Virus record (IMG/VR): IMGVR_UViG_3300035670_000340 | Coordinates: 1-48,054 of that record | Length of the DNA: 48,054 bases | Direction: 5' to 3' (one strand) | Source of the DNA: a virus | Shown here: in pieces, positions 3,192-38,162 of the stretch | How positions within the stretch are numbered: position 1 is the first letter of the stretch | Layout: each line of letters starts with the position of its first letter | Program-made: the position numbers and the translations under genes | Notes under the pieces: model-generated | The model's input: only the letters and a program-made list of their open reading frames with translations | The model's database searches: none | What the model was told of the DNA's origin: nothing

Positions 3192-3483
3192 CGACCCCTA
3201 CGACTACCTGGCTGGGGCCATCGCCGCGCATTGGGGCGAGCGCTGCCCGGACTACGAGCCCCAGTGCGCCTGCTGCGCGGCTTGGGCGCAGTACGACGCG
3301 CTGAAAGTCGATGGCCTGAACCACGCAATCAAGTTCGTCACGGATAGGCGCGACGATTATCTGGAGGAACACGGTAACTACGACCCTGAAACCGGGTTGA
3401 CAGAATGCGCACCAGCTGGGGAAGAGTACGTCTCTGAACTGGAAGAGATCATGGAGGGGCTGGAAGCCCTGCGCGCCAAATGA
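3184..3483 (+). CDS. Unknown acidic protein with Cys cluster
   Basis: The 99-aa product starts at ATG 3184 with AGGAG seven bases upstream and overlaps the previous stop. A CPDYEPQCACCAAW segment (residues 19-32) contains four Cys that could bind zinc. The rest is acidic and helical (EEYVSELEEIMEGLEAL). The stop overlaps the next start as ATGA. The function is unknown. Confidence 0.6.
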   Translation: MIDDPYDYLAGAIAAHWGERCPDYEPQCACCAAWAQYDALKVDGLNHAIKFVTDRRDDYLEEHGNYDPETGLTECAPAGEEYVSELEEIMEGLEALRAK

Positions 3484-3815
3484 CCCCGCGCGAACTGTCT
3501 GTCGTCATCCTGAAGCAAGTCGCCGCCAAGCACGGCACCACGCTGGCGGATCTGCACAAGGGCGCCAGATGGCCCGAGCTATGCCAAGCGCGGTGGGAAG
3601 CATTCTACCGGCTACGCACTGAACGCCGCATGACGCTGAAGCAGATCGGCGAGCTGCTGGGGTACGATCATGCCACGGTGCACTATGGCGTCTCTCGGCA
3701 CGCCGAACTCGCCGGCATCGCAGCGCTGAAAGACCGGGCCGACTACACGGTCCAGAAGCGCGCCAAGGCCCGCCAACGTTATCACGAGCGCGCCGCGGCG
3801 GAACGGGCTGGCTAG
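3480..3815 (+). CDS. DnaA domain IV-like DNA-binding protein
   Basis: The 111-aa protein resembles only the C-terminal DNA-binding domain of DnaA. Residues 50-74 read RMTLKQIGELLGYDHATVHYGVSRH, matching the DnaA signature in which the D-H-[AST]-T-V-x-[YH] segment contacts the DnaA box. No ATPase domain is present. In phages such stand-alone domains may bind origin-like boxes or regulate host DnaA; here the primase-helicase and an iteron cluster lie about 4 kb downstream. The start overlaps the previous stop (ATGA). Confidence 0.75.
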   Translation: MTPRELSVVILKQVAAKHGTTLADLHKGARWPELCQARWEAFYRLRTERRMTLKQIGELLGYDHATVHYGVSRHAELAGIAALKDRADYTVQKRAKARQRYHERAAAERAG

Positions 3816-3914: not shown

Positions 3915-4916
3915 GTGCCTGACATTTCTACCGCATTCGCGGGGTTGACACAACCCCTTGCGGCTACAACACCCCCTTCTATCGACATCCGCGAAGGCGA
4001 CTGCCGCGACGTTCTAAAGACGCTGCCCAGTTCATCGGTCAATTGCATCGTGACGAGCCCGCCTTACTTCGGGCTACGCGACTACGGCGTTGACAGGCAG
4101 ATGGGCTTGGAGCCGTCGCCGGACGAGTTCGCCGCAGCACTGGTCGGCGTTCTGCACGAGGCGCGGCGCGTGCTGAGAGATGACGGAACGCTTTGGCTGA
4201 ACCTTGGCGATAGCTATGCCGGCGGCAACGCGACAGGAAAATGGCGTGAAGGCAGTGCGCGCGCAGATGGCGATGTGCGCGACGATGGGCATAGTCGACG
4301 CAACCGGAACGGCATCGGATCTGTCGATGGCTGCAAGCCCAAAGACCTGATCGGCATCCCATGGCGCGTTGCCTTTGCGCTGCAAGCCGACGGCTGGTAT
4401 TTGCGGCAAGATATCATCTGGCACAAACCGAACCCGATGCCGGAAAGCGTGCGCGACCGATGCACCAAGGCGCACGAGTACATCTTTTTGCTGAGCAAGT
4501 CGGAGCGGTACTACTTCGACAGCGAGGCGATGAAGGAGCCAATTGCAGACCCGAGCCGGGTAGGTGAACGCACACAAGTCAACTACGCCGACGAAAGCAA
4601 GCTGGGTAGAGCGGAAATCGACCGTCATGTTGTGACCAGAAAAGCAACCCGCAACCGCCGCAGCGTCTGGACCGTTGCGACCCGCCCATTCAGCGGCGCC
4701 CACTTCGCTACGTTCCCGCCAGATCTGATCGAGCCGTGCATTCTGGCTGGCTGTCCGAAGGGCGGAACAGTGCTGGACCCGTTCTTCGGCGCCGGCACGA
4801 CGGGGCTGGTTGCGCAACGCCACGGCCGAAATGCCATCGGCATCGAACTGAACCCGGAGTACGTGCGCATCGCGAAGCGTCGTCTGGGTCTGCCGGAAAC
4901 GGACATCTTTTCATGA
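3915..4916 (+). CDS. Beta-class site-specific DNA methyltransferase
   Basis: The 333-aa protein has the N4-C/N6-A methyltransferase motif IV TSPPY (residues 47-51) near the N-terminus and the SAM-binding motif DPFFGAGTTG (288-297) near the C-terminus. This order defines the beta class. The central part is the target-recognition region. GTG 3915 is chosen because GGGAG stands 7 bases upstream; GTG 3882 is an in-frame alternative. No cognate endonuclease is adjacent, so it is an orphan enzyme, likely protecting phage DNA from host restriction. The protein ends in ETDIFS and its stop overlaps the next ATG. Confidence 0.9.
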   Translation: MPDISTAFAGLTQPLAATTPPSIDIREGDCRDVLKTLPSSSVNCIVTSPPYFGLRDYGVDRQMGLEPSPDEFAAALVGVLHEARRVLRDDGTLWLNLGDSYAGGNATGKWREGSARADGDVRDDGHSRRNRNGIGSVDGCKPKDLIGIPWRVAFALQADGWYLRQDIIWHKPNPMPESVRDRCTKAHEYIFLLSKSERYYFDSEAMKEPIADPSRVGERTQVNYADESKLGRAEIDRHVVTRKATRNRRSVWTVATRPFSGAHFATFPPDLIEPCILAGCPKGGTVLDPFFGAGTTGLVAQRHGRNAIGIELNPEYVRIAKRRLGLPETDIFS

Positions 4917-4923
4917 CAATAGC
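4893..4923 (+). repeat. 31-bp direct repeat at gene junction (copy 1)
   Basis: The 31 bases encode the last residues of the methyltransferase (PETDIFS), its stop, and the first codons of the next gene (MTIA). An identical 31-base sequence occurs at 5543-5573, exactly one gene downstream. Confidence 0.9.
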
Positions 4924-5566
4924 TGCTCTCTACGTCGAGACAAACGGCGCGTACTACGGGTTGGCCGGTGTTGACCCGTGGGATGAACACCGCGACGCCC
5001 GTAACTATACGGGCCCACATGCCGTGGTGGCGCACCCGCCATGCCAACGCTGGGGCAAGATGTGGTTCGGGCAACCGCTGACAGTAAAGCTGACTGGCGT
5101 ACGCAAGAAAAAAGGCGACGATGGCGGCTGTTTCGCTGCCGCGCTGGACGCAGTGCGTACATGGGGCGGCGTTCTGGAGCATCCGTGGCAGTCTCACGCG
5201 TGGCCGCATTTCGGGCTCGCCGTGCCGCCGCGATCCGGCGGGTGGGTGCGGGCTGACAACTGTGGTGGCTGGACCTGTTGCGTCGAGCAAGGCCGGTACG
5301 GGCACTACGCCAGAAAGCCAACCATGCTGTACGCGGTAAGGACACACCTGCCAGAACTGGACTGGGGCACCAGCGAGGCAAGGCTGGACCCGGCCGTTGT
5401 CGAGCGCATGGGCCTCAAGCGCGCCCGTCGATTGGGCGAAGTAGGCGCGCGAGGCGGCGGAACAGACAGCACACCCCGCATTCACACGCCACCACAGTTT
5501 CGCGAACTGCTAATCAGCATGGCGCGCTCCGTCGGCGGGCTACCGGAAACGGACATCTTTTCATGA
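4913..5566 (+). CDS. PPC-motif phage protein, possibly C5-methyltransferase-related
   Basis: The 217-aa protein has AHPPCQRWG (about residues 40-48) and GGVLEHPWQS (about 83-92). These recall motif IV (PPC) and motif VI (ENV) of cytosine-C5 methyltransferases, but there is no recognisable SAM-binding FxGxG. It may be a degenerate or divergent relative, or an unrelated conserved phage family. It ends in ETDIFS, as the preceding methyltransferase does. The gene is flanked by 31-bp direct repeats, so it looks like a single-gene cassette. Confidence 0.65.
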   Translation: MTIAALYVETNGAYYGLAGVDPWDEHRDARNYTGPHAVVAHPPCQRWGKMWFGQPLTVKLTGVRKKKGDDGGCFAAALDAVRTWGGVLEHPWQSHAWPHFGLAVPPRSGGWVRADNCGGWTCCVEQGRYGHYARKPTMLYAVRTHLPELDWGTSEARLDPAVVERMGLKRARRLGEVGARGGGTDSTPRIHTPPQFRELLISMARSVGGLPETDIFS

Positions 5567-5573
5567 CAATAGC
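5543..5573 (+). repeat. 31-bp direct repeat at gene junction (copy 2)
   Basis: This is identical to 4893-4923. Here it joins the end of the PPC-motif gene to the start of the primase-helicase gene. The unit length between copies is 650 bases. Confidence 0.9.
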
Positions 5574-9007: not shown

Positions 9008-9199
9008 TTATTTGCCTTCAGGCAGGTATTCCCAACCAAGGCGGGCTTTGGTCGCGATCCACTTGGCTTTCACGGCCTCGCTGGAGGCGTAGGCCGACCA
9101 GTGCGAGCCGTCGGGCAGGCGCCAGTGAACATGCAGGCCGGCGGCTCCGCGTTGCGCCATGGCGCGGGCGATCAGGGCAGATGAGGCGGGGCTGAGCAT
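9008..9199 (-). CDS. Small protein of unknown function (63 aa)
   Basis: The product reads MLSPASSALIARAMAQRG, then HVHWRLPDGSHWSAYASSEA, which suggests a small beta-hairpin plus helix fold. The gene has the conserved leader TGACAACACGGAGAAAA before its start. The function is unknown. Confidence 0.6.
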   Translation of the reverse strand: MLSPASSALIARAMAQRGAAGLHVHWRLPDGSHWSAYASSEAVKAKWIATKARLGWEYLPEGK

Positions 9200-9203
9200 G
9201 GCG

Positions 9204-9230
9204 TTTTCTCCGTGTTGTCAGGGCCTTGTG
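9204..9230 (-). promoter_or_regulatory. Repeated leader with RBS (copy 1)
   Basis: On the minus strand CAAGGCCCTGACAACACGG is followed by AGAAAA directly before the 9008-9199 gene. It matches the leaders at 9520-9547 and 9740-9767. Confidence 0.75.
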
Positions 9231-9248
9231 CGTCGGTAGGAAGGGCTG

Positions 9249-9515
9249 TTAGACGCCTTTTCTTGTGGCGAACAAGCTGCCAAGAGGCATGCCGCGTTTG
9301 TCGGTCATGTCGAGGCGCAGCGGCGTCGATGGCGCGTATTTGTCGGCCCACCACGAACCGCGTTGGATAGCGGGCCAAAGTTGTGCCGGAAGTTTTTCAC
9401 AAAGCGCGGAGAAGTCGGGGATGTACATGAGGCCGCGCGTCGCGTTGGCGGGAACTTCGAATTTGCGGCATAGGTTTCCGTTGCGGTGTAGCTCCACTTC
9501 GAACCATATGGTCAT
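9249..9515 (-). CDS. Unknown protein (88 aa)
   Basis: The product begins MTIWFEVELHRNGNLCRKF and has alternating hydrophobic residues indicating beta strands, then an amphipathic helix (PDFSALCEKLPAQLWPAI). ATG 9515 follows the conserved GGAGAAAA leader. No family is recognised. Confidence 0.6.
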   Translation of the reverse strand: MTIWFEVELHRNGNLCRKFEVPANATRGLMYIPDFSALCEKLPAQLWPAIQRGSWWADKYAPSTPLRLDMTDKRGMPLGSLFATRKGV

Positions 9516-9519
9516 GGTA

Positions 9520-9547
9520 TTTTCTCCGTGTTGTCAACGCCTTCGTG
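9520..9547 (-). promoter_or_regulatory. Repeated leader with RBS (copy 2)
   Basis: On the minus strand CACGAAGGCGTTGACAACAC is followed by GGAGAAAA. It differs from copy 3 at only two or three positions. Confidence 0.75.
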
Positions 9548-9588
9548 TTGCGAAAGCAAGGGGTATTTTATTCAGTGCGCGTAGCGTT

Positions 9589-9735
9589 TCAGCGCTGTTG
9601 GACCCACGTATAGGCGTCATCGTTACTCTCGAACGCCATGTACCCGCCACAGACCTTGATGACACGGCACGCCCAAGGCGCGAGTTTACGGGCGGTCTTG
9701 GCGCTCTTGCACCCTCCGAGAAAAGTCTTGCGCAT
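9589..9735 (-). CDS. Small basic protein (48 aa)
   Basis: Reading the minus strand from ATG 9735 gives 48 aa: a basic half (MRKTFLGGCKSAKTARK), then APWACRVIKVCGGYMAF and an acidic, aromatic end. Three Cys residues are present. It is the first gene of the leftward cluster, directly behind the conserved leader and about 34 bases from the predicted transcription start. The function is unknown. Confidence 0.6.
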   Translation of the reverse strand: MRKTFLGGCKSAKTARKLAPWACRVIKVCGGYMAFESNDDAYTWVQQR

Positions 9736-9739
9736 TTTG

Positions 9740-9767
9740 TTTTCTCCGTGTTGTCAGTGCCTTCGTG
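9740..9767 (-). promoter_or_regulatory. Repeated leader with RBS (copy 3)
   Basis: On the minus strand CACGAAGGCACTGACAACAC is followed by GGAGAAAA before the 48-aa gene. It begins at the predicted transcription start of the cluster. Confidence 0.75.
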
Positions 9768-9775
9768 TTGCTTTT

Positions 9776-9906: not shown

Positions 9907-9942
9907 GTAGCGTAGGCTACACTTTGTAGGATAGGCTAAATG
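9887..9942 (+). repeat. Three 19-bp tandem repeats before the small terminase gene
   Basis: TGTAGCGTA starts at 9887 and 9906 and TGTAGGATA at 9925, an exact 19-bp period reaching into the ATG at 9940. The middle unit contains the palindrome TGTAGC-GTAG-GCTACA (9906-9921). These may be small-terminase recognition (pac-like) sites or an autoregulatory operator. Confidence 0.75.
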
Positions 9943-10389
9943 CCCTTAAAGAACGGACACTTAACGGCTGGCGAACGTGGCGTGGCGCGTGAAATGGCGT
10001 TGCACGGGTCGCCTGAGGCGGCGGCGCTGAAAACCGGGCTGTCGGCTAGCGGCGTGAAGGCGGTTTTGCGTCGTCCGGCGGTGCATGCGGAGATCGCCAG
10101 GCAGCAGCAGGAGCTACTTTTCCGCGATATCCTGCCGCTCGCCGTCGCCGCGCATAAGCGGCTGTTGACTGATCCGCGCACGCCGGCCGGCGCCGTCGCG
10201 CAGGCCGTAAAGCTGGCCTATGACAGGACTTTGGGCAGCGAGGAAGGCGCGCGCAGCAAAGAGCCGCACGAGATGACACCAGAGGAGCTGGCTGAGGCAA
10301 TCGCCACGTTGAGCCGCATTGCCAGCGAGCGCGCAAAGCCGGTCATCGAGATCGGCGCCGAGGTCGACGACAGCTCGATCTTCGACTGA
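9940..10389 (+). CDS. Putative terminase small subunit
   Basis: The 149-aa protein begins with a helix-turn-helix region (residues 8-45, ending AALKTGLSASGVKAVLRR), followed by a helical oligomerisation-like stretch and an acidic C-terminus ending in DDSSIFD. Size, N-terminal HTH and position upstream of the virion genes fit a small terminase, which recognises packaging sites and recruits the large subunit. The large subunit lies 4 kb downstream, an unusual separation. A transcriptional regulator is the main alternative. Confidence 0.6.
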   Translation: MPLKNGHLTAGERGVAREMALHGSPEAAALKTGLSASGVKAVLRRPAVHAEIARQQQELLFRDILPLAVAAHKRLLTDPRTPAGAVAQAVKLAYDRTLGSEEGARSKEPHEMTPEELAEAIATLSRIASERAKPVIEIGAEVDDSSIFD

Positions 10390-10442
10390 TGCGCGCAACG
10401 AGCGCCCAACGACATGCGCTAAGCTATTGATGCATATGGACG

Positions 10443-10469
10443 ACGAATAGTCTTAGTAAGACTGTTCGT
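10443..10469. repeat. 27-bp near-perfect palindrome
   Basis: ACGAA-T-AGTCTTA-G-TAAGACT-G-TTCGT is symmetric around 10456 with a single T/G mismatch. It lies about 50 bases after the small terminase stop. It could be an operator, a cleavage or packaging site, or a transcript-end hairpin; no T-run follows. Confidence 0.8.
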
Positions 10470-10616
10470 TGCTCCAAGGGCGGCGCGGCATGACGCTTGC
10501 GGCGGGTTGATCGGCCGTCGAGCCCCGGCCCACCCCTGGCAGGCGGTCGGGCGCGCGGGCGGAAACGGCGCCGGGCGCCGCTACCAAAATTCCGGCCGAA
10601 AAGGAAACGGACCGTC

Positions 10617-10645
10617 TTGTCCGCCCCGCCGATAAGCGCTAAATG
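10617..10645 (+). promoter_or_regulatory. Promoter P1 of the leader RNA
   Basis: TTGTCC (10617-10622), a 17-base spacer and TAAATG (10640-10645). The -35 and most of the spacer lie in a 22-bp block repeated exactly at 10856-10877. Initiation is expected near 10652. Confidence 0.6.
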
Positions 10646-10651
10646 TGTTGG

Positions 10652-10845
10652 CAGCGGATCGCGTCAGTAGGGCTCCCTGCGGGTGACCGACGGTGTGGCA
10701 GCCGGCCCAAGATAGCTTCCCAATTCCACGGCGAGTGGAATGCGCAGCCAGACCGCATGTCCGGAAGTCCTACTACGTGGACTTCACGCCCGTTTAGGGT
10801 CAGGCCATCACTGACCGCCCGAAGCGCAAGTTTCGGGCGGTTTTT
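10652..10845 (+). ncRNA. Candidate structured leader RNA (about 195 nt)
   Basis: A transcript from P1 to the terminator would be about 194 nt. It contains two perfect hairpins, ATTCCAC/GTGGAAT (10723-10741, 5-nt loop) and GAAGTCC/GGACTTC (10764-10785, 8-nt loop), followed by the intrinsic terminator. No open frame of note fits. Size and position (ahead of the late genes and cut by a terminator) recall lambda 6S RNA from pR'. The paired hairpins also recall HK022 put antitermination RNA. A regulatory role is inference. Confidence 0.55.
10815..10845 (+). terminator. Intrinsic terminator of the leader RNA
   Basis: CCGCCCGAA (10815-10823) pairs with TTCGGGCGG (10832-10840) around an 8-base loop, followed by TTTTTCTTT. 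This is a textbook rho-independent terminator. Confidence 0.9.
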
Positions 10846-10860
10846 CTTTGACTGGCCGTC

Positions 10861-10895: not shown

Positions 10896-11063
10896 ATGTC
10901 CGACGAGATCAGCATCAATCAGCCGACGATCACGGCCATCACCGACACACCGTCGGTTCGGGTCATCTATCGGAACGATGCAGGCGCCACGTTTCGCGTC
11001 AACGCCGTCCAGAAGCCTAACCCGATCGGCTTTCTCGCCAGATTGCCCGGCAAGCGGGCCTAA
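10896..11063 (+). CDS. Small protein, probably from a leaderless mRNA (55 aa)
   Basis: The product begins MSDEISINQPTITAITDTPS and looks like a small beta-rich protein. No Shine-Dalgarno sequence precedes ATG 10896, but promoter P2 would start transcription at that base. It lies between two intrinsic terminators, so it forms a short unit with the next gene. The function is unknown. Confidence 0.5.
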   Translation: MSDEISINQPTITAITDTPSVRVIYRNDAGATFRVNAVQKPNPIGFLARLPGKRA

Positions 11064-11081: not shown

Positions 11082-11300
11082 ATGAAACCCGTGAAGACTG
11101 AATTGGTTTTCAAACTGAGCGCCCCTGAGCCCCGCAAGGAGCGCATCATTGTGGAGGCCATACCGGTGCAGGATAACGTGACCGAGCCCCGCATCATGGT
11201 GTTTGTGGCCGGCATCGACGGCGCGGCGGTACAGGTAGTCATCCCCGCCCCGGAAGCGCGCGAGATGGCCGAGAACATTCTGCGCGCGCTTACCACTTGA
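11082..11300 (+). CDS. Small protein of unknown function (72 aa)
   Basis: The product begins MKPVKTELVFKLSAPEPRKE and shows alternating hydrophobic beta strands (RIMVFVAGIDGAAVQVVIPA) before a C-terminal helix (EAREMAENILRAL). The ribosome binding site is weak. It is followed by the terminator at 11392. The family is not recognised. Confidence 0.55.
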   Translation: MKPVKTELVFKLSAPEPRKERIIVEAIPVQDNVTEPRIMVFVAGIDGAAVQVVIPAPEAREMAENILRALTT

Positions 11301-11391
11301 CACCTGCCACGGACTGGGACAATATCACTGCATCGGCCAAGTTCCCTTCCCCCGTCTCGGCCGATCTTTCCTCCCGGAAGACCCAACTAGC

Positions 11392-11430
11392 GCCCCGTCA
11401 GGTGTACCAATTGGCGGGGCTTTTCTTTTT
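11392..11430 (+). terminator. Intrinsic terminator before the tail fibre
   Basis: GCCCCGTCA (11392-11400) pairs with TTGGCGGGGC (11411-11420), allowing one G-T wobble, and is followed by TTTTCTTTTT. It would end P2 transcripts before the fibre gene unless antitermination or partial read-through occurs. Confidence 0.88.
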
Positions 11431-11476
11431 GGCCGTTTTGCCCTACAACCGACAGGACGCAACGCGGGTGTGGGCC

Positions 11477-12931
11477 ATGTCGTATCCGACCATTTACGAT
11501 GTTTCGTATAGCTACACTGGCTTTCAGGCCGCTTTGGGCGACGGGTCGTTCCCCGGAACGCAGCTCGACGCCGATATGGCGGGCTTGTCCGACAGTATCG
11601 CTTCAATCGAAGCGTTCATTCAGACGGCTTTCCGGTCGGACGGGGTGCTGAAGGCTGCGTCGCTGCCCGGAACCGACCCGATCTTGCAGTACGTCGACGA
11701 AGCTGCCGCGGCGGCAGCCGCGTCAGCGACGGAAATCGCCACGACGGCGGCAACGTCCGCTTCAGCGAGCGCAACGGCGGCCGCCGGGTCCGCGACGAAC
11801 GCAGCGACTTCGGAAACGCAGGCCGCTTCGAGCGCGTCCGCCGCGCAAACGGCGCGGACTGGGGCCGAAACGGCCCAAACAGCCGCTGTTGCCGCAAAAA
11901 CGGCGGCCGAAACGGCCCAAACTGGCGCCCAGACGGCCGAAACGGTCGCCGTAACGGCAAAAACCGCCGCGGAGACCGCTCAAACGGGCGCTCAGACGGC
12001 GCGTACCGGCGCCGAGACCGCCCAAACGGCGGCGGAAGCCGCAAAAACCGCCACTGAGGCGTTTTTCACGTCCGGCAGCTTCTCCACGACGCATCTGGTG
12101 CATGCGGTTTCGGCGACGACACGCTTTCCCGCCAGTTCGCGCTACATCGCGTCGAACAACGGCTACGGTTTTCTCGCCGATGTCTACGGCGGCTATGGCG
12201 GATTGTTCGGGCGGCGTACCGGCGGCACCAATGCATCCCCGACGGCGTTGACTGGGACAAATACGCTGGTGGCTTACGAGGGCGCGGGCTGGCATTCCGG
12301 CGGTGCGTTCGGAACGCACGTCGTTGGCGTCTATCTGGTCGGCGCCGGGGACTTCACCTCGACCAGCCAGCCGACGCGGATCGATTTCGACGTCACGCCG
12401 ACCGGGTCCATCACCCAGGCCACGGCGCTGCGCATCCAGCCGTCCGGGCTGATCGACGTTCTGTCGGGCAAGATCGGCTTCCCGGCCACTCAGATCCCGT
12501 CGACCGATCCGAACGTGCTTGACGACTACGAGGAAGGCTCGTTCACGCCCGTTCTGGTCGGGTCGGGCAACACGTTCTCGTTTCTGACGCAAGCCGGGCG
12601 CTACACGAAGATCGGCCGGATGGTCAACTTCGAGCTGACGATCGAGCTGAACACGTCCGGCAACACGCTGGCCGCGAATGCGCTGACGATCACCGGATTG
12701 CCGTTCACGTCGGGTACGACGAATGCCGTGTTCCCGGTTGCGTGGCACAACTCGACTTCGCTGTTCGTTCATGTTTCGGCAGCGCTGTCGTCCGGCAGCA
12801 CGACGCTGACGCTCTACGGGCTGACGGCGGCCGCCACTTCCAGCTACTCGGCGGCAACGGGGCTGACCCTGATGCACGCTACGAACGGTTCGCGCTTGCG
12901 GATCAACGGAACCTATGAGGCCTCGGCATGA
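11477..12931 (+). CDS. Tail fibre protein with coiled-coil stalk
   Basis: The 484-aa protein has an N-terminal virion-anchor domain (YSYTGFQA...LDADMAGLS...RSDGVLK), then an Ala/Thr-rich stalk (about residues 80-195) with repeats of the type TAAETAQTGAQTAE. A beta-rich C-terminal domain probably binds the receptor. The anchor resembles the N-terminus of the minus-strand tail spike at 45449-47848. ATG 11477 lies 47 bases after a strong terminator; earlier in-frame starts would cross it. The stop overlaps the next gene as ATGA. Confidence 0.8.
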   Translation: MSYPTIYDVSYSYTGFQAALGDGSFPGTQLDADMAGLSDSIASIEAFIQTAFRSDGVLKAASLPGTDPILQYVDEAAAAAAASATEIATTAATSASASATAAAGSATNAATSETQAASSASAAQTARTGAETAQTAAVAAKTAAETAQTGAQTAETVAVTAKTAAETAQTGAQTARTGAETAQTAAEAAKTATEAFFTSGSFSTTHLVHAVSATTRFPASSRYIASNNGYGFLADVYGGYGGLFGRRTGGTNASPTALTGTNTLVAYEGAGWHSGGAFGTHVVGVYLVGAGDFTSTSQPTRIDFDVTPTGSITQATALRIQPSGLIDVLSGKIGFPATQIPSTDPNVLDDYEEGSFTPVLVGSGNTFSFLTQAGRYTKIGRMVNFELTIELNTSGNTLAANALTITGLPFTSGTTNAVFPVAWHNSTSLFVHVSAALSSGSTTLTLYGLTAAATSSYSAATGLTLMHATNGSRLRINGTYEASA

Positions 12932-14179: not shown

Positions 14180-14530
14180 ATGCAATTGCCCCGCGCCAAG
14201 AACGAGGTCAATATCAATACCGTCATCACGATCGTCGGGTTTTTGCTGACCATTGCGGGTGGTGGCGTCGCATGGGGCACGGCGCAAGCCAACATCGCCA
14301 CGCTGACGACCGGGCAAGCCGAGCTGGGCACACGGATGACGACGGCCGAAGGCGTCACCAGCCGGTTGGTAAATCTGGAGTATCGCGTGACCGTCGCCGA
14401 ACAAGCCAATACCAATCTGGCGAGAGCGGTCGACGAGCTACGCGCCGCCGTGGCAAACCAGAGCGCTGATATTAGGGTCGTTCGGGAAATCGTGACCCGC
14501 ATGGACCGGCAGTTGGCCGATGGAAAGTAA
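14180..14530 (+). CDS. Membrane-anchored coiled-coil protein, possible holin
   Basis: The product (116 aa from ATG 14180, behind GAGGAG; GTG 14165 is an alternative) has one N-terminal membrane helix (TVITIVGFLLTIAGGGVAWG) and a long predicted coiled coil. The layout resembles small phage membrane proteins in lysis cassettes (DUF2730-like). No other clear holin is present, so this or the C-terminal helix of the endolysin may provide the function. It overlaps the large terminase start by 11 bases. Confidence 0.6.
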   Translation: MQLPRAKNEVNINTVITIVGFLLTIAGGGVAWGTAQANIATLTTGQAELGTRMTTAEGVTSRLVNLEYRVTVAEQANTNLARAVDELRAAVANQSADIRVVREIVTRMDRQLADGK

Positions 14531-17237
14531 ACCGAAGCGCGGCGGTGGCCGTGCCAGCATGATCAACCCGAAGACGGGCAAGCGCTACGGCTGGGAAGCG
14601 GAGCAAGCCGCGCGCAAGGCCGCCGAGCCCGATTTGGAAGAGGTAACGCAGCGCCTGGGGCTGCTCAAGCGCGCTCAGCGCGCCCAGCAGGCGCGCGAAA
14701 AGTTCATGCCGTTCGTCAAGTTCACGTCGCCGGATCCCGCCGACCCGAACGATGTTGACAAGTCGCGCTACCAGAACGCCCGTCATCACGATGCCATTGC
14801 CCGCGTCGTCGAGGAAGTCGTCAACGGCGGCATTCGCTTCCTGATCCTGACGATGCCACCGCGGCATGGAAAACAGCTTGCACACGAAACGCCGGTCCCG
14901 ACGCCGGCCGGATATGTGCGCCACGGAGATTTACGGCCTGGTGACACTGTGTTTGGGCCTGACGGCCAACCGGTAAAGGTGTTGGCTATCAGCCCCGAAG
15001 CGCCGCAGGACGTGGAGATAGAGTTTACAAACGGCGAGATTGTTCGCTGCCACGAGAAACATGAATGGACGGTGCGGGATCGGCGCTCGTACCCGCCACG
15101 AATGCGGACGCTCGAAACGCGCGACCTGGAACACGATGTGTGGATAGGCAAAGCTGGAGCCCGCGGCGGGCGGGCGCGTTGGCAGCTTCCCGACGCGGAC
15201 TGCTTGTCATACCCGTCGGCTGTGCAGCCGCTTCACCCGTACGCTCTTGGTGTTTGGCTCGGCGACGGCGCGACAACGAAGCCGCATATAACTGGGGTAG
15301 ATGAAGAGGTGTTTGACGCGGCAGCGGCGTGCAGCGGCTTTCATGAAACAGGCCGTTGGGTGCACAAGACCACGGGCGTCACGACGGTGGCTTTTTCTGG
15401 CCCGCGTCCGAACGTTCGGGGCCAATTGTCAGCAGCTTTGCACGCGCTCGGGCTCGTGAATATCAAATTCATTCCGCCGCAGTACTTGCGCGCCAGCAGA
15501 GAGCAGCGCTTGCAGTTGTTGGCCGGGTTGATGGACACTGACGGGCATGTCGAGCACGATACCGGTCGCTGCCGGTTCGTTACTGGTGACGAGCGGCTGG
15601 CGGACGACGTTTTTACGCTAGCTAGTGGTTTGGGGTTTCGGCCGTACGTCATGCGGCAACAGCCGGGCCTGTCGACTTCGGGTATACAGGGGCGCCGCGA
15701 GATTATCACTGTGGGTTTTCAACCGACAGAGGCTATACCTACGCGGCTAGAGCGTAAACGCGTTCTGAAATTCGGGGTGCGCAGGCGTGTAGCGATCAAG
15801 AGTATTCGTCGTGTTGCGCCTCATATGGGACGGTGCATTCAAGTTGACCGTCCGGACGGCCTGTATATCGTCGGCCGCAAGCATGTCGTAACCCACAATA
15901 GCGAGCTGGTTTCGCGCCGTCTGCCGGCGTGGTTCATCGGCAAGTTCCCGCACCAGAATGGCGTTGTGGCAACCTATAACGACGATTTCGCCGCCGATTT
16001 CGGCAAGGACGTGCGGACGATCGTCAGCAGCCCCCAGTTCAAGCAGGTATTCCCCGGCGTGCGGCTCCAGCGCGGTGGCGCCGCGTCGGACTTCCTGAAA
16101 ACGACGGAAGGCGGGCAGTGGGCCTTTGTCGGCCGGCGCGGTTCGCTGACCGGTCGCGGCGCGCACCTTGCGATCATGGACGACTTGATCAAGGACGACA
16201 AGGAAGCCCAGTCCCAAACGATCCGCGACGAGGCGTGGAACTTCTTCACCAAGGTCGTGATGACCCGCCGCATGGGGCTGAAGCTGGTGATCATGACGTT
16301 CACCCGCTGGCATTCGGATGACCCGATCGGCCGTCTGACCGACCCGGAGAACCCCTACTACAACGAGAACCTGGCGCGGAAGATCAAGATCATCAACCTG
16401 CCGGCCATCGCGGAAGAAGACGACCCGCTCGGGCGCGAGCCGGGCGAGGCGCTCTGGCCGGACGGCCCGGACAAGTTCGACCTGGAGTTTCTGGAGGAAC
16501 AGCGCAGCATCGACGCACTTGGCTTCGAGGCGCTGTATCAGCAGCACCCGAGCTTGCTGGACGGCGAGCTGTATCGGCGCGAGACGATCAAGTTCTACGG
16601 CCCCGGAACCGGCGTCGATCTGCCGGCCAATCTGCGCTATTACGCGGCGTCCGATCACGCGCTTGACAGTGGTCGGCGGCACGATCCGTCGTGTCTGCTG
16701 AAAATCGGCGTCGACAAGAACAGCGATATCTACATTCTAGACTGCATCTGGAAGAAGATGCCGACGGACGTGGCGGTGGAGGCCATGCTCGCCATGATGC
16801 GCGACGGCACGCCGCCGCTGCTGTGGTGGGCTGAAAAGGGCCACATCTCCAAGTCGATCGGCCCGTTTTTGCGTAAGCGCATGCTGGAGACTGGAACCTA
16901 CATCAACATCGTCGAGGTCACGCCCGTGTCCGACAAGGGCACGCGCGCTCAGTCGATGGTCGGCCGCGTCGCAATGGGCAAGGTCTATTTCCCGAAGGGC
17001 GCGTGGTGGACGGAAAAGGCCATCAACGAGATGATGGCGTTTCCCAACGGCACGCACGACGACTTCTGCGATACCTTGAGCCTGTTCGGTCTCGGATTGC
17101 AAAACCAGTTCGCTCCGAGTAAATCTGTAGCGTCGGCCAAGATCGCCGCGCCCGCGTTCGGGACGCTGGCCTGGGTTCGACAGGCGGATACATGGCGCGA
17201 GCGGCAACGTGCTGAGCGTACGGCCGGAGGCTTCTGA
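14520..17237 (+). CDS. terL: Terminase large subunit interrupted by an intein
   Basis: The 905-aa precursor has the TerL ATPase P-loop MPPRHGK up to residue 118, interrupted by a 342-aa intein (119-460). It resumes at SELVSRRLP, so splicing restores PPRHGKS. Downstream are a Walker B-like HLAIMDDL and nuclease-domain acidic motifs (YYAASDHALDSG and THDDFCDT). The mature protein would be 563 aa, normal for TerL. It cuts and pumps DNA into the prohead through the portal encoded next. The start lies inside the previous gene without a clear Shine-Dalgarno sequence. The precursor is inactive in ATP binding until splicing. Confidence 0.93.
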   Translation: MESKPKRGGGRASMINPKTGKRYGWEAEQAARKAAEPDLEEVTQRLGLLKRAQRAQQAREKFMPFVKFTSPDPADPNDVDKSRYQNARHHDAIARVVEEVVNGGIRFLILTMPPRHGKQLAHETPVPTPAGYVRHGDLRPGDTVFGPDGQPVKVLAISPEAPQDVEIEFTNGEIVRCHEKHEWTVRDRRSYPPRMRTLETRDLEHDVWIGKAGARGGRARWQLPDADCLSYPSAVQPLHPYALGVWLGDGATTKPHITGVDEEVFDAAAACSGFHETGRWVHKTTGVTTVAFSGPRPNVRGQLSAALHALGLVNIKFIPPQYLRASREQRLQLLAGLMDTDGHVEHDTGRCRFVTGDERLADDVFTLASGLGFRPYVMRQQPGLSTSGIQGRREIITVGFQPTEAIPTRLERKRVLKFGVRRRVAIKSIRRVAPHMGRCIQVDRPDGLYIVGRKHVVTHNSELVSRRLPAWFIGKFPHQNGVVATYNDDFAADFGKDVRTIVSSPQFKQVFPGVRLQRGGAASDFLKTTEGGQWAFVGRRGSLTGRGAHLAIMDDLIKDDKEAQSQTIRDEAWNFFTKVVMTRRMGLKLVIMTFTRWHSDDPIGRLTDPENPYYNENLARKIKIINLPAIAEEDDPLGREPGEALWPDGPDKFDLEFLEEQRSIDALGFEALYQQHPSLLDGELYRRETIKFYGPGTGVDLPANLRYYAASDHALDSGRRHDPSCLLKIGVDKNSDIYILDCIWKKMPTDVAVEAMLAMMRDGTPPLLWWAEKGHISKSIGPFLRKRMLETGTYINIVEVTPVSDKGTRAQSMVGRVAMGKVYFPKGAWWTEKAINEMMAFPNGTHDDFCDTLSLFGLGLQNQFAPSKSVASAKIAAPAFGTLAWVRQADTWRERQRAERTAGGF
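14874..15899 (+). mobile_element. Class 3-type intein with LAGLIDADG homing endonuclease
   Basis: The 342-residue insertion begins at Gln (QLAHETPVPTPAGY) instead of Cys or Ser and ends THN followed by Ser. It carries the class 3 triad: Trp at intein residue 65 (KHEWTV, block B), Cys at 321 (RCIQVD, block F) and Thr at 340 (VVTHN, block G). The block F Cys is expected to replace the missing N-terminal nucleophile. Two LAGLIDADG motifs are visible, LGVWLGDGA (from residue 125) and LAGLMDTDG (from 216), so it is probably a mobile full-length intein. Confidence 0.88.
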
Positions 17238-36797: not shown

Positions 36798-38162
36798 ATG
36801 GGCCTCGCGCTCACACCCGACCCCCACCAAATCGACGGCGCCCGCTGGCTGTCCGGCAAAAAGCATGCGCTTCTGGCCGATCAACCCCGCGTCGGGAAGA
36901 CCGGCACGCTGATCATGGCCGCCGACGATGTCATGGCCGATACGGTGCTGACAATCACGACGGCGTCGGGCTTGCCAGTCTGGGCGAGAGGCTGGCGGGA
37001 TTGGTCAACGTTCAATAGGCCGCTTCAGGCCGTCGGTCCACACTTCTGCATCGCCAAAGCGCCGGCACTGGTGACGGTGTCATGGAATATGCTCTGGCGA
37101 CCGGAGATCCGTGGCGAGCTGCTGAAGCGCAAATGGGATCTGATCATCGCCGACGAGGCCCACAAGGCCAAGAACTACGACAACACGACGACCCAGTCCC
37201 TGTACGGCGTTCTGCACGATGACGGGCGCGAGCTGTTGGCTTCTGCCGCACTATTCCATAAGGCCGAGCGCGTCTGGCCGGCGACTGGAACGCCGATCCC
37301 GCACGATCCCGCCGACCTGTACCCGATGATGCGGGCGCTGTGCCCCGAGCGGCTGCGGGCCGATGCGGCGCGCGGCTGGACGGACGTGACGCGCTATGAG
37401 GCCTTTCGCGACCGCTACTGCCACTGGCGGCCAAAAAAGTTGCCCGGCTCGTGGCGGACGATCATCGTGATCATGGGCGGCAAGCGGGAAGACGAGCTGA
37501 ACGCCCGTCTGAAAGGCTTCTGGTTGCTGCGAACCCAGGCCGAAATCGGCATCTTGCAGCCGGTCTACGAGACCTTCCCGCTGGCCGTCAGCGACAAGAT
37601 GCTGAAAGCCGCCAATGGCGATCTAAAGGCCGACGCGATCCTGAACGCCGCCCGGCAAGGCGACACGCGCTCGCTTGACATGCATCTGGGGCCGTTGCGC
37701 CGTATCACGGGCGAGCTTAAGGCTCGCGCTGTCATCGACGCCGTTCACGACGAACTGGACGGCGGGCTCGACAAGATCGTTCTAGCCTACTGGCACCAAG
37801 ACGTGGGCCGTATCCTGAAAGAAGGGCTGTCGAAGTACGGCGTGACCGGTATCGACGGCTCAACGTCGCCGAAGAACCGCGACCTGAACGTCGAGGCGTT
37901 TCAGAGCGGGCGCTGTCGGGTCTTTCTGGCCCAGATCGAAGCGGCCGGCGAAGCGATCGATCTGAGCGCGGCGGCCGAACTGTGGTTCGTCGAGACGGTC
38001 TTCCAACCGAAGGCCATGAAGCAGATGTCGCTTCGCGTGACGAATAGAAACCGGCATCGTCGACCCATCGTACGCGTTTGTACGCTCGAAGGCAGCATCG
38101 ACGAAGCATTGCAAGAAATCCTGCTCCGCTTGTGGAGCACGATACGTGAAGTCCTAAAATAG
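36798..38162 (+). CDS. SNF2/DEAH-type superfamily 2 DNA helicase
   Basis: The 454-aa protein has Walker A DQPRVGKTG (residues 28-36), motif II DEAH (119-122), motif III-like PATGTPIP and motif VI QMSLRVTNRNRHRRP near the C-terminus. This is a compact SNF2-like ATPase common in phage replication modules. It may remodel forks or displace proteins from DNA. It starts after a promoter and hairpin. Confidence 0.9.
   Translation: MGLALTPDPHQIDGARWLSGKKHALLADQPRVGKTGTLIMAADDVMADTVLTITTASGLPVWARGWRDWSTFNRPLQAVGPHFCIAKAPALVTVSWNMLWRPEIRGELLKRKWDLIIADEAHKAKNYDNTTTQSLYGVLHDDGRELLASAALFHKAERVWPATGTPIPHDPADLYPMMRALCPERLRADAARGWTDVTRYEAFRDRYCHWRPKKLPGSWRTIIVIMGGKREDELNARLKGFWLLRTQAEIGILQPVYETFPLAVSDKMLKAANGDLKADAILNAARQGDTRSLDMHLGPLRRITGELKARAVIDAVHDELDGGLDKIVLAYWHQDVGRILKEGLSKYGVTGIDGSTSPKNRDLNVEAFQSGRCRVFLAQIEAAGEAIDLSAAAELWFVETVFQPKAMKQMSLRVTNRNRHRRPIVRVCTLEGSIDEALQEILLRLWSTIREVLK

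Follow-up and report, generated by a model that had tools for sequence, protein, structure and literature searches.

The phage and the region behind its small terminase gene

The DNA analysed here (the window) comes as a virus record of 48,054 bases that looks complete and has a repeat of 127 bp at its ends. It encodes a tyrosine integrase, for which reason the phage is probably temperate. Its closest isolate is Rhizobium phage RHph_N65; full-length relatives are found in IMG/VR (L003, L004 and L010), and Rhizobiales genomes hold weak prophage relatives. Searches with the family of the small terminase gene (terS) yielded about 28 distinct relatives, 29 loci are compared below, and searches by tail protein and prophage gained few further loci. 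One of the scanned loci (L047) later proved to be without the conserved block behind terS, and L002 represents the same phage as the window, with one base different in 13 kb. Several other features of the genome lie outside the region studied: a 37-nt repeat of 95% identity at the end of a methyltransferase gene and near a primase-like gene (4887-4923 and 5537-5573, 650 nt apart), a gene for a DnaA domain IV-like protein (3480-3815), a promoter/ribosome-site cassette occurring three times on the minus strand ahead of three tiny early genes (9197-9235, 9513-9551 and 9733-9771), and a large terminase of 905 aa (14520-17237) with an extra part of ~345 aa that carries a LAGLIDADG_3 domain, is missing in the nearest relatives and is probably an intein.

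The gene preceding the reported feature (9940-10389, plus strand, 149 aa) is a small terminase according to its family profile, which matches the small terminases 7joq (E 2.5e-9) and 6w7t (E 1.8e-7) in the PDB; Terminase_2 is recognised in 6 of 15 family members and the PHROG terminase small subunit in 8 of 15. Directly behind terS, nearly all relatives possess ~200-250 noncoding bases, which alignments of 5 and of 29 loci delimit in the window as a conserved block at 10390-10622 (no strand assigned). Here the block comprises two GCGCNCAAC direct repeats (10390-10410), a C-rich stretch, the element AAAATTC...GAAAA and a final dyad, GGAC-CGTCTT-GTCC (10609-10622); across the family, direct repeats lie near GTGCGCAAC and are accompanied by a C-rich stretch and an AAAAATTCG element, and the block closes with a dyad GGAC-N4-6-GTCC, the strict pattern of which is present in 23 of 28 relatives. 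The dyad is the limit of conservation, and the sequence beyond it is not conserved. Three loci (L033:4430-4600, and L026 and L028 near the dyad) contain two or three tandem copies of the dyad with its flank. Its repeats and its position next to terS make the block an obvious packaging-site candidate, and it may perhaps be a packaging or an operator site; a comparison with PaP3, which has a related small terminase, leaves the packaging question undecided, as its terS is placed differently relative to the genome ends. For this phage family the block offers a concrete packaging-site candidate.

The right arm of the dyad is also the -35 box of a predicted promoter, P1 (10617-10645, plus strand), in which TTGTCC (10617-10622) and TAAATG (10640-10645) are separated by 17 nt and which would start transcription near 10652. 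P1 is not listed by a plain sigma-70 scan; it is supported by a 22-bp repeat in a second promoter, P2 (chance 0.01), and by spacing in the relatives, where a TA stands exactly 17 nt past the dyad in 6 of 23 cases and at any other spacing in 0-2. On account of this spacing, the dyad is predicted to serve some members of the family as a promoter as well. The site also stands before a tRNA-Thr gene in L030, and tRNA genes occupy the slot that separates terS from the tail genes in L030 (5822-5909), L031 (6150-6227) and L042 (6468-6546).

An earlier note on this DNA had described P1, a roughly 194-nt RNA, a pair of perfect hairpins and a terminator, with no gene inside; these elements are indeed present at 10612-10850, and the intrinsic terminator is strong. 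The predicted transcript, RNA A, spans 10652-10850 on the plus strand from promoter to terminator (about 195-198 nt, the end being expected at about 10848) and contains the perfect 7-bp hairpins ATTCCAC-5-GTGGAAT (10723-10741) and GAAGTCC-8-GGACTTC (10764-10785); 1.7% of shuffles of its sequence possess two or more such hairpins. Its terminator (10813-10850, with the stem at 10813-10842 followed by a T tract) has 13 pairs and -24.2 kcal/mol and is the top terminator-like site between 8 and 14 kb of the window. With this terminator the fold of RNA A reaches z -3.2 against shuffles, while the body without it is no more stable than they are (z -0.5). RNA A shows no coding signal: GC3 is 0.58-0.68 in its three frames as compared with 0.72-0.83 in the real neighbouring genes, and the long spurious ORF finds no match in the phage collection. 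A tRNA in the window was likewise rejected, and Rfam at its curated cut-offs gives no match there.

RNA A appears to be private to this phage: no homologue exists among the 28 relatives, the sole match being the same phage (L002), and neither the phages nor the plasmids searched contain a DNA relative of the reported region. Pairing of the hairpins in homologous phages, which the earlier note had named as one test of its proposal, is not conserved in the 28 relatives, and this speaks against the proposal as far as the test can be applied. The anti-Shine-Dalgarno motif treated below is missing from RNA A. A similar plan is seen in L037, where a direct repeat of the site flanks an RNA of ~169 nt and a terminator, with the TA 17 nt downstream in both copies of the site as in both copies in the window, and with an RNA unrelated in sequence. 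Immediately after the terminator of RNA A lies P2 (10861-10889, plus strand; TTGTCC-17-TATACG), which has a better -10 (TATACG) than P1 and whose end lies 7 nt upstream of an ATG (10896), so that a leaderless start of this gene is predicted and, with it, a new start directly behind the terminated RNA. The gene in question (10896-11063, 55 aa, GC3 0.80) and the following one (11082-11300, 72 aa, GC3 0.77) lie on the plus strand, both without a homologue found.

The late module and its predicted small RNA

A further unit, which we call the late module, is located at 11297-11428, 500 bases beyond the reported stretch and just before the tail genes. On the plus strand it consists of a promoter found by the promoter-terminator scan (P3, TTGACA-17-CAATAT, 11297-11325) and a predicted alpha-r8-like small RNA of ~95 nt (RNA B, 11332-11428) with a weak hairpin, the sequence UUUCCUCCC at 11367-11375 and an intrinsic terminator (11392-11428), whose T tract is the -35 of yet another promoter (P4, TTTTCT-17-TACAAC, 11421-11449) ahead of the first tail gene (fibre-like, 11477-12931), which opens the run of late genes. 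The window thus holds two modules of promoter, RNA, terminator and promoter, a private one (RNA A) and a family-wide one (RNA B).

The latter designation rests on a scan of the 2.2 kb downstream of terS in the 29 loci for a promoter followed by a terminator within 220 nt. Of the 29 loci, 18 have such a unit; dinucleotide shuffles give 1.0, and the opposite strand gives 2. After removal of L037 (a unit of the reported type) and L040 (a pair within coding sequence), and of an extra pair in L042, the late module is present in at least 16 of 29 loci, with a median of 87 nt, just before tail or neighbouring late genes; a further promoter occurs at the T tract of the terminator in 14 of the 16 modules (2.8 expected). 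At the same place, L016, L030, L041 and L046 carry TCCTCCC and then a terminator, which the strict scan missed. The family conserves the general layout in which promoter, short RNA and terminator precede the tail genes; the RNA units themselves are so divergent that a covariance model built on the late RNAs gave no shared pairing.

What these RNAs share is a short motif. CCTCCC occurs in 11 of the 16 module RNAs (2.7, at most 7, in shuffles), and the anti-Shine-Dalgarno sequence TCCTCCC ten times in 1.4 kb of modules as compared with twelve times in 397 kb elsewhere, a 230-fold enrichment; over the motifs considered, enrichment is 70- to 230-fold relative to the rest of the same loci. TTTCCTCCC is found three times in modules and never elsewhere in the loci, and in the window, scanned on both strands, it is single and lies at 11367 inside RNA B. 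RNA B likewise contains the window's single copy of UUUCCUCCC, which represents nine bases of the alpha-r8 (MmgR/SisA) core. The 10-mer UUUCCUCCCU is complete in L042 (10/10) and nearly so in the window and L032 (9/10); the other relatives are without it, many having just CCUCCC. Folds of RNA B and of its counterparts in L042, L031 and L032 place a weak hairpin upstream of the core and a Rho-independent terminator downstream. The exposure of CCTCC is little above that of other stretches rich in C (0.88 vs 0.84).

Rfam models point to the same places. The suhB/mmgR model matches exactly on the module in the window, L042, L033, L018, L031 and L032, the match in the window being the sole one in its genome (11361-11435, 17.9 bits) and the best relative being L042 (37.5 bits, E 7.5e-8 per genome), which shares a near-identical 20-nt core. 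The ar14 model, without a match in the window, falls exactly on the module of RHph_N65 (26.7 bits, E 9.7e-5), L021 (25.8 bits) and L018. These matches are mostly the best of their genome; all, including those of the window and L042, score below the gathering cut-offs (41 bits for RF00519, 58.8 bits for RF02344), and many control genomes also give weak matches to both models. Because of these scores we do not file the module RNAs as members of alpha-r8 or alpha-r14, which they resemble in predicted layout and core motif. A second suhB/mmgR-like match lies upstream of terS on the opposite strand in L031 (2697-2784, minus), with a counterpart in L032. Duplex energies between the RNAs and phage gene starts, which ignore self-folding, were uninformative.

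Proposed small RNA units ahead of the late genes

We favour, with a probability of roughly 0.6, the reading that the reported stretch is an autonomous small RNA gene and RNA B a family-wide trans-acting small RNA of alpha-r8/alpha-r14 type standing before the late promoter. P1, a host-type promoter, would give rise to the noncoding RNA A of ~195 nt ending at its own terminator, and the genes beyond would start afresh from P2; for RNA A an autonomous predicted transcript is all that we propose. The slot between terS and the late genes would house the small RNA units of this phage family, and the late module would be its family-wide occupant, with P3, the ~95-nt RNA bearing an exposed anti-Shine-Dalgarno core UUUCCUCCC, and the terminator on whose T tract the tail-gene promoter P4 is built, which would drive the late genes. 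Both RNAs are presumed to be transcribed by the host RNA polymerase, stopping at their terminators. As for targets, RNA B would most likely act in trans like the alpha-r8/alpha-r14 RNAs of the host, by pairing, in the lysogen or at a late stage of infection, with the ribosome-binding sites on mRNAs of the host (or on early phage mRNAs); we infer its transcription, termination, pairing and targets from the sequence and layout, the motif enrichment and the co-location of the models.

Three other explanations have to be weighed. P1 might be no promoter at all, TTGTCC being kept as the right arm of a dyad that serves packaging or as an operator, and its downstream repeat being a duplication, with RNA A as unexpressed filler and the terminator serving the terS transcript. 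Such an account would fit the dyad of 23 of 28 relatives, which mostly lacks a -10 at 17 nt, and the local duplications in L033, L026 and L028; it is made rather unlikely by the TA at exactly 17 nt in 6 of 23 relatives and in both copies of the window and of L037, and by the tRNA gene that the site precedes in L030. A comparably low probability attaches to the view that modules of the RNA B type are plain terminators insulating the late operon, which owe their alpha-r8 likeness to an easily matched C-rich leader followed by a terminator. Scores under the cut-offs and the weak matches in many control genomes speak for it; the 70- to 230-fold motif enrichment and the fact that two independent models match exactly at the modules speak against it.

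Least probable of the three, and quite improbable, is the switch suggested in the earlier note, i.e. an antitermination leader in which the RNA from P1 stops at the terminator as long as the polymerase is unmodified; once altered by a phage factor or by the RNA itself, the polymerase would read the late genes. A short RNA with a strong terminator does stand before the late genes in most relatives, as at lambda pR'. The proposed kind of unit is there, equipped with a promoter and a terminator of its own and placed ahead of the late genes, and its general layout is family-conserved; the pR'-like position, however, belongs to the module at 11297-11428 and not to 10612-10850, and there too a second promoter follows the terminator. 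Such a promoter is present both here (P2, with its predicted leaderless start) and in 14 of 16 late modules, another terminator (11392-11420) lies between RNA A and the late genes, and RNA A is unconserved, all of which argues against antitermination. So does the search for a Q protein, in which PF06323, PF06530 and PF03589 gave no match in the genome, although the control for one of these three models (PF06323) also gave none.

The preferred reading, that of autonomous small RNA units, suggests phage-encoded alpha-r8-like anti-Shine-Dalgarno RNAs that are, by sequence prediction, coupled to late promoters. RNA B, which resembles regulatory RNAs of the likely bacterial hosts, would then be a type of cargo new to these phages. 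A broader proposition, on which we would lay an even wager, is that a family of temperate rhizobial phages carries its own alpha-r8/alpha-r14-like RNA, fused to the late promoter via a shared terminator and -35, as a host-mimicking riboregulator placed with the late genes, and that these phages may spread alpha-r8 laterally. If the RNAs are transcribed, the phages would use the same anti-Shine-Dalgarno code as the metabolic small RNAs of their hosts. Since RHph_N65, isolated on Rhizobium phaseoli, carries the module, with its RNA predicted to run from near 38058 to near 38160 of that record, the reading is open to immediate test; its annotation shows nothing at the module, and our literature search found no paper on this phage.

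Comparison with known systems

The put RNA of HK022 is a pair of hairpins in a phage transcript, close to its 5' side. RNA A also has two hairpins; it differs in showing no sequence relation to put, in the terminator that directly follows and in its own promoter P2 after that, and the conserved paired structure typical of put is absent among the 28 relatives. In lambda, pR', the 6S RNA and tR' form, together with Q, a unit of promoter, short RNA and terminator ahead of the late genes, and the units of the window and its family share this arrangement; they differ in the second promoter past the terminator, in that Q was not found and in an RNA sequence that is not conserved. The module RNA would lie where lambda makes its unexplained 6S RNA.

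Phage-encoded small RNAs as such are already known (reviewed in PMC12197685); a phage-borne RNA like alpha-r8 (MmgR) or alpha-r14 was not found in the literature searched, and a phage-borne alpha-r8-like RNA is apparently unreported so far. The alpha-r14 or cuckoo RNAs (NfeR1, SmelA075; RF02344) have CCUCCUCCC in every hairpin and stems that diverge strongly (PMC3927594; PMC10746234). RHph_N65, L021 and others resemble them in their unpaired CCUCCC motifs, whereas the phage RNAs have one to three motifs instead of CCUCCUCCC per hairpin and remain under the cut-off.

The alpha-r8 family (RF00519), with SisA-D of Caulobacter and MmgR as its Sinorhizobium meliloti member (PMC7143759), is defined by the 10-mer UUUCCUCCCU below a weak hairpin and by a Rho-independent terminator (PMC12559287). 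RNA B differs in being phage-borne, in lying between terS and a late promoter, in its score under the Rfam cut-off and in a core of 9/10 in the window. It is like alpha-r8, together with several relatives, in the weak hairpin, the UUUCCUCCC core, the Rho-independent terminator and a length of ~70-100 nt, and L042 has GGCGUUUCCUCCCUAnACUUU in common with the family. If the phage RNAs are transcribed, such phages would give the alpha-r8 RNAs a path for the lateral transfer that has been noted for them (PMC12559287).
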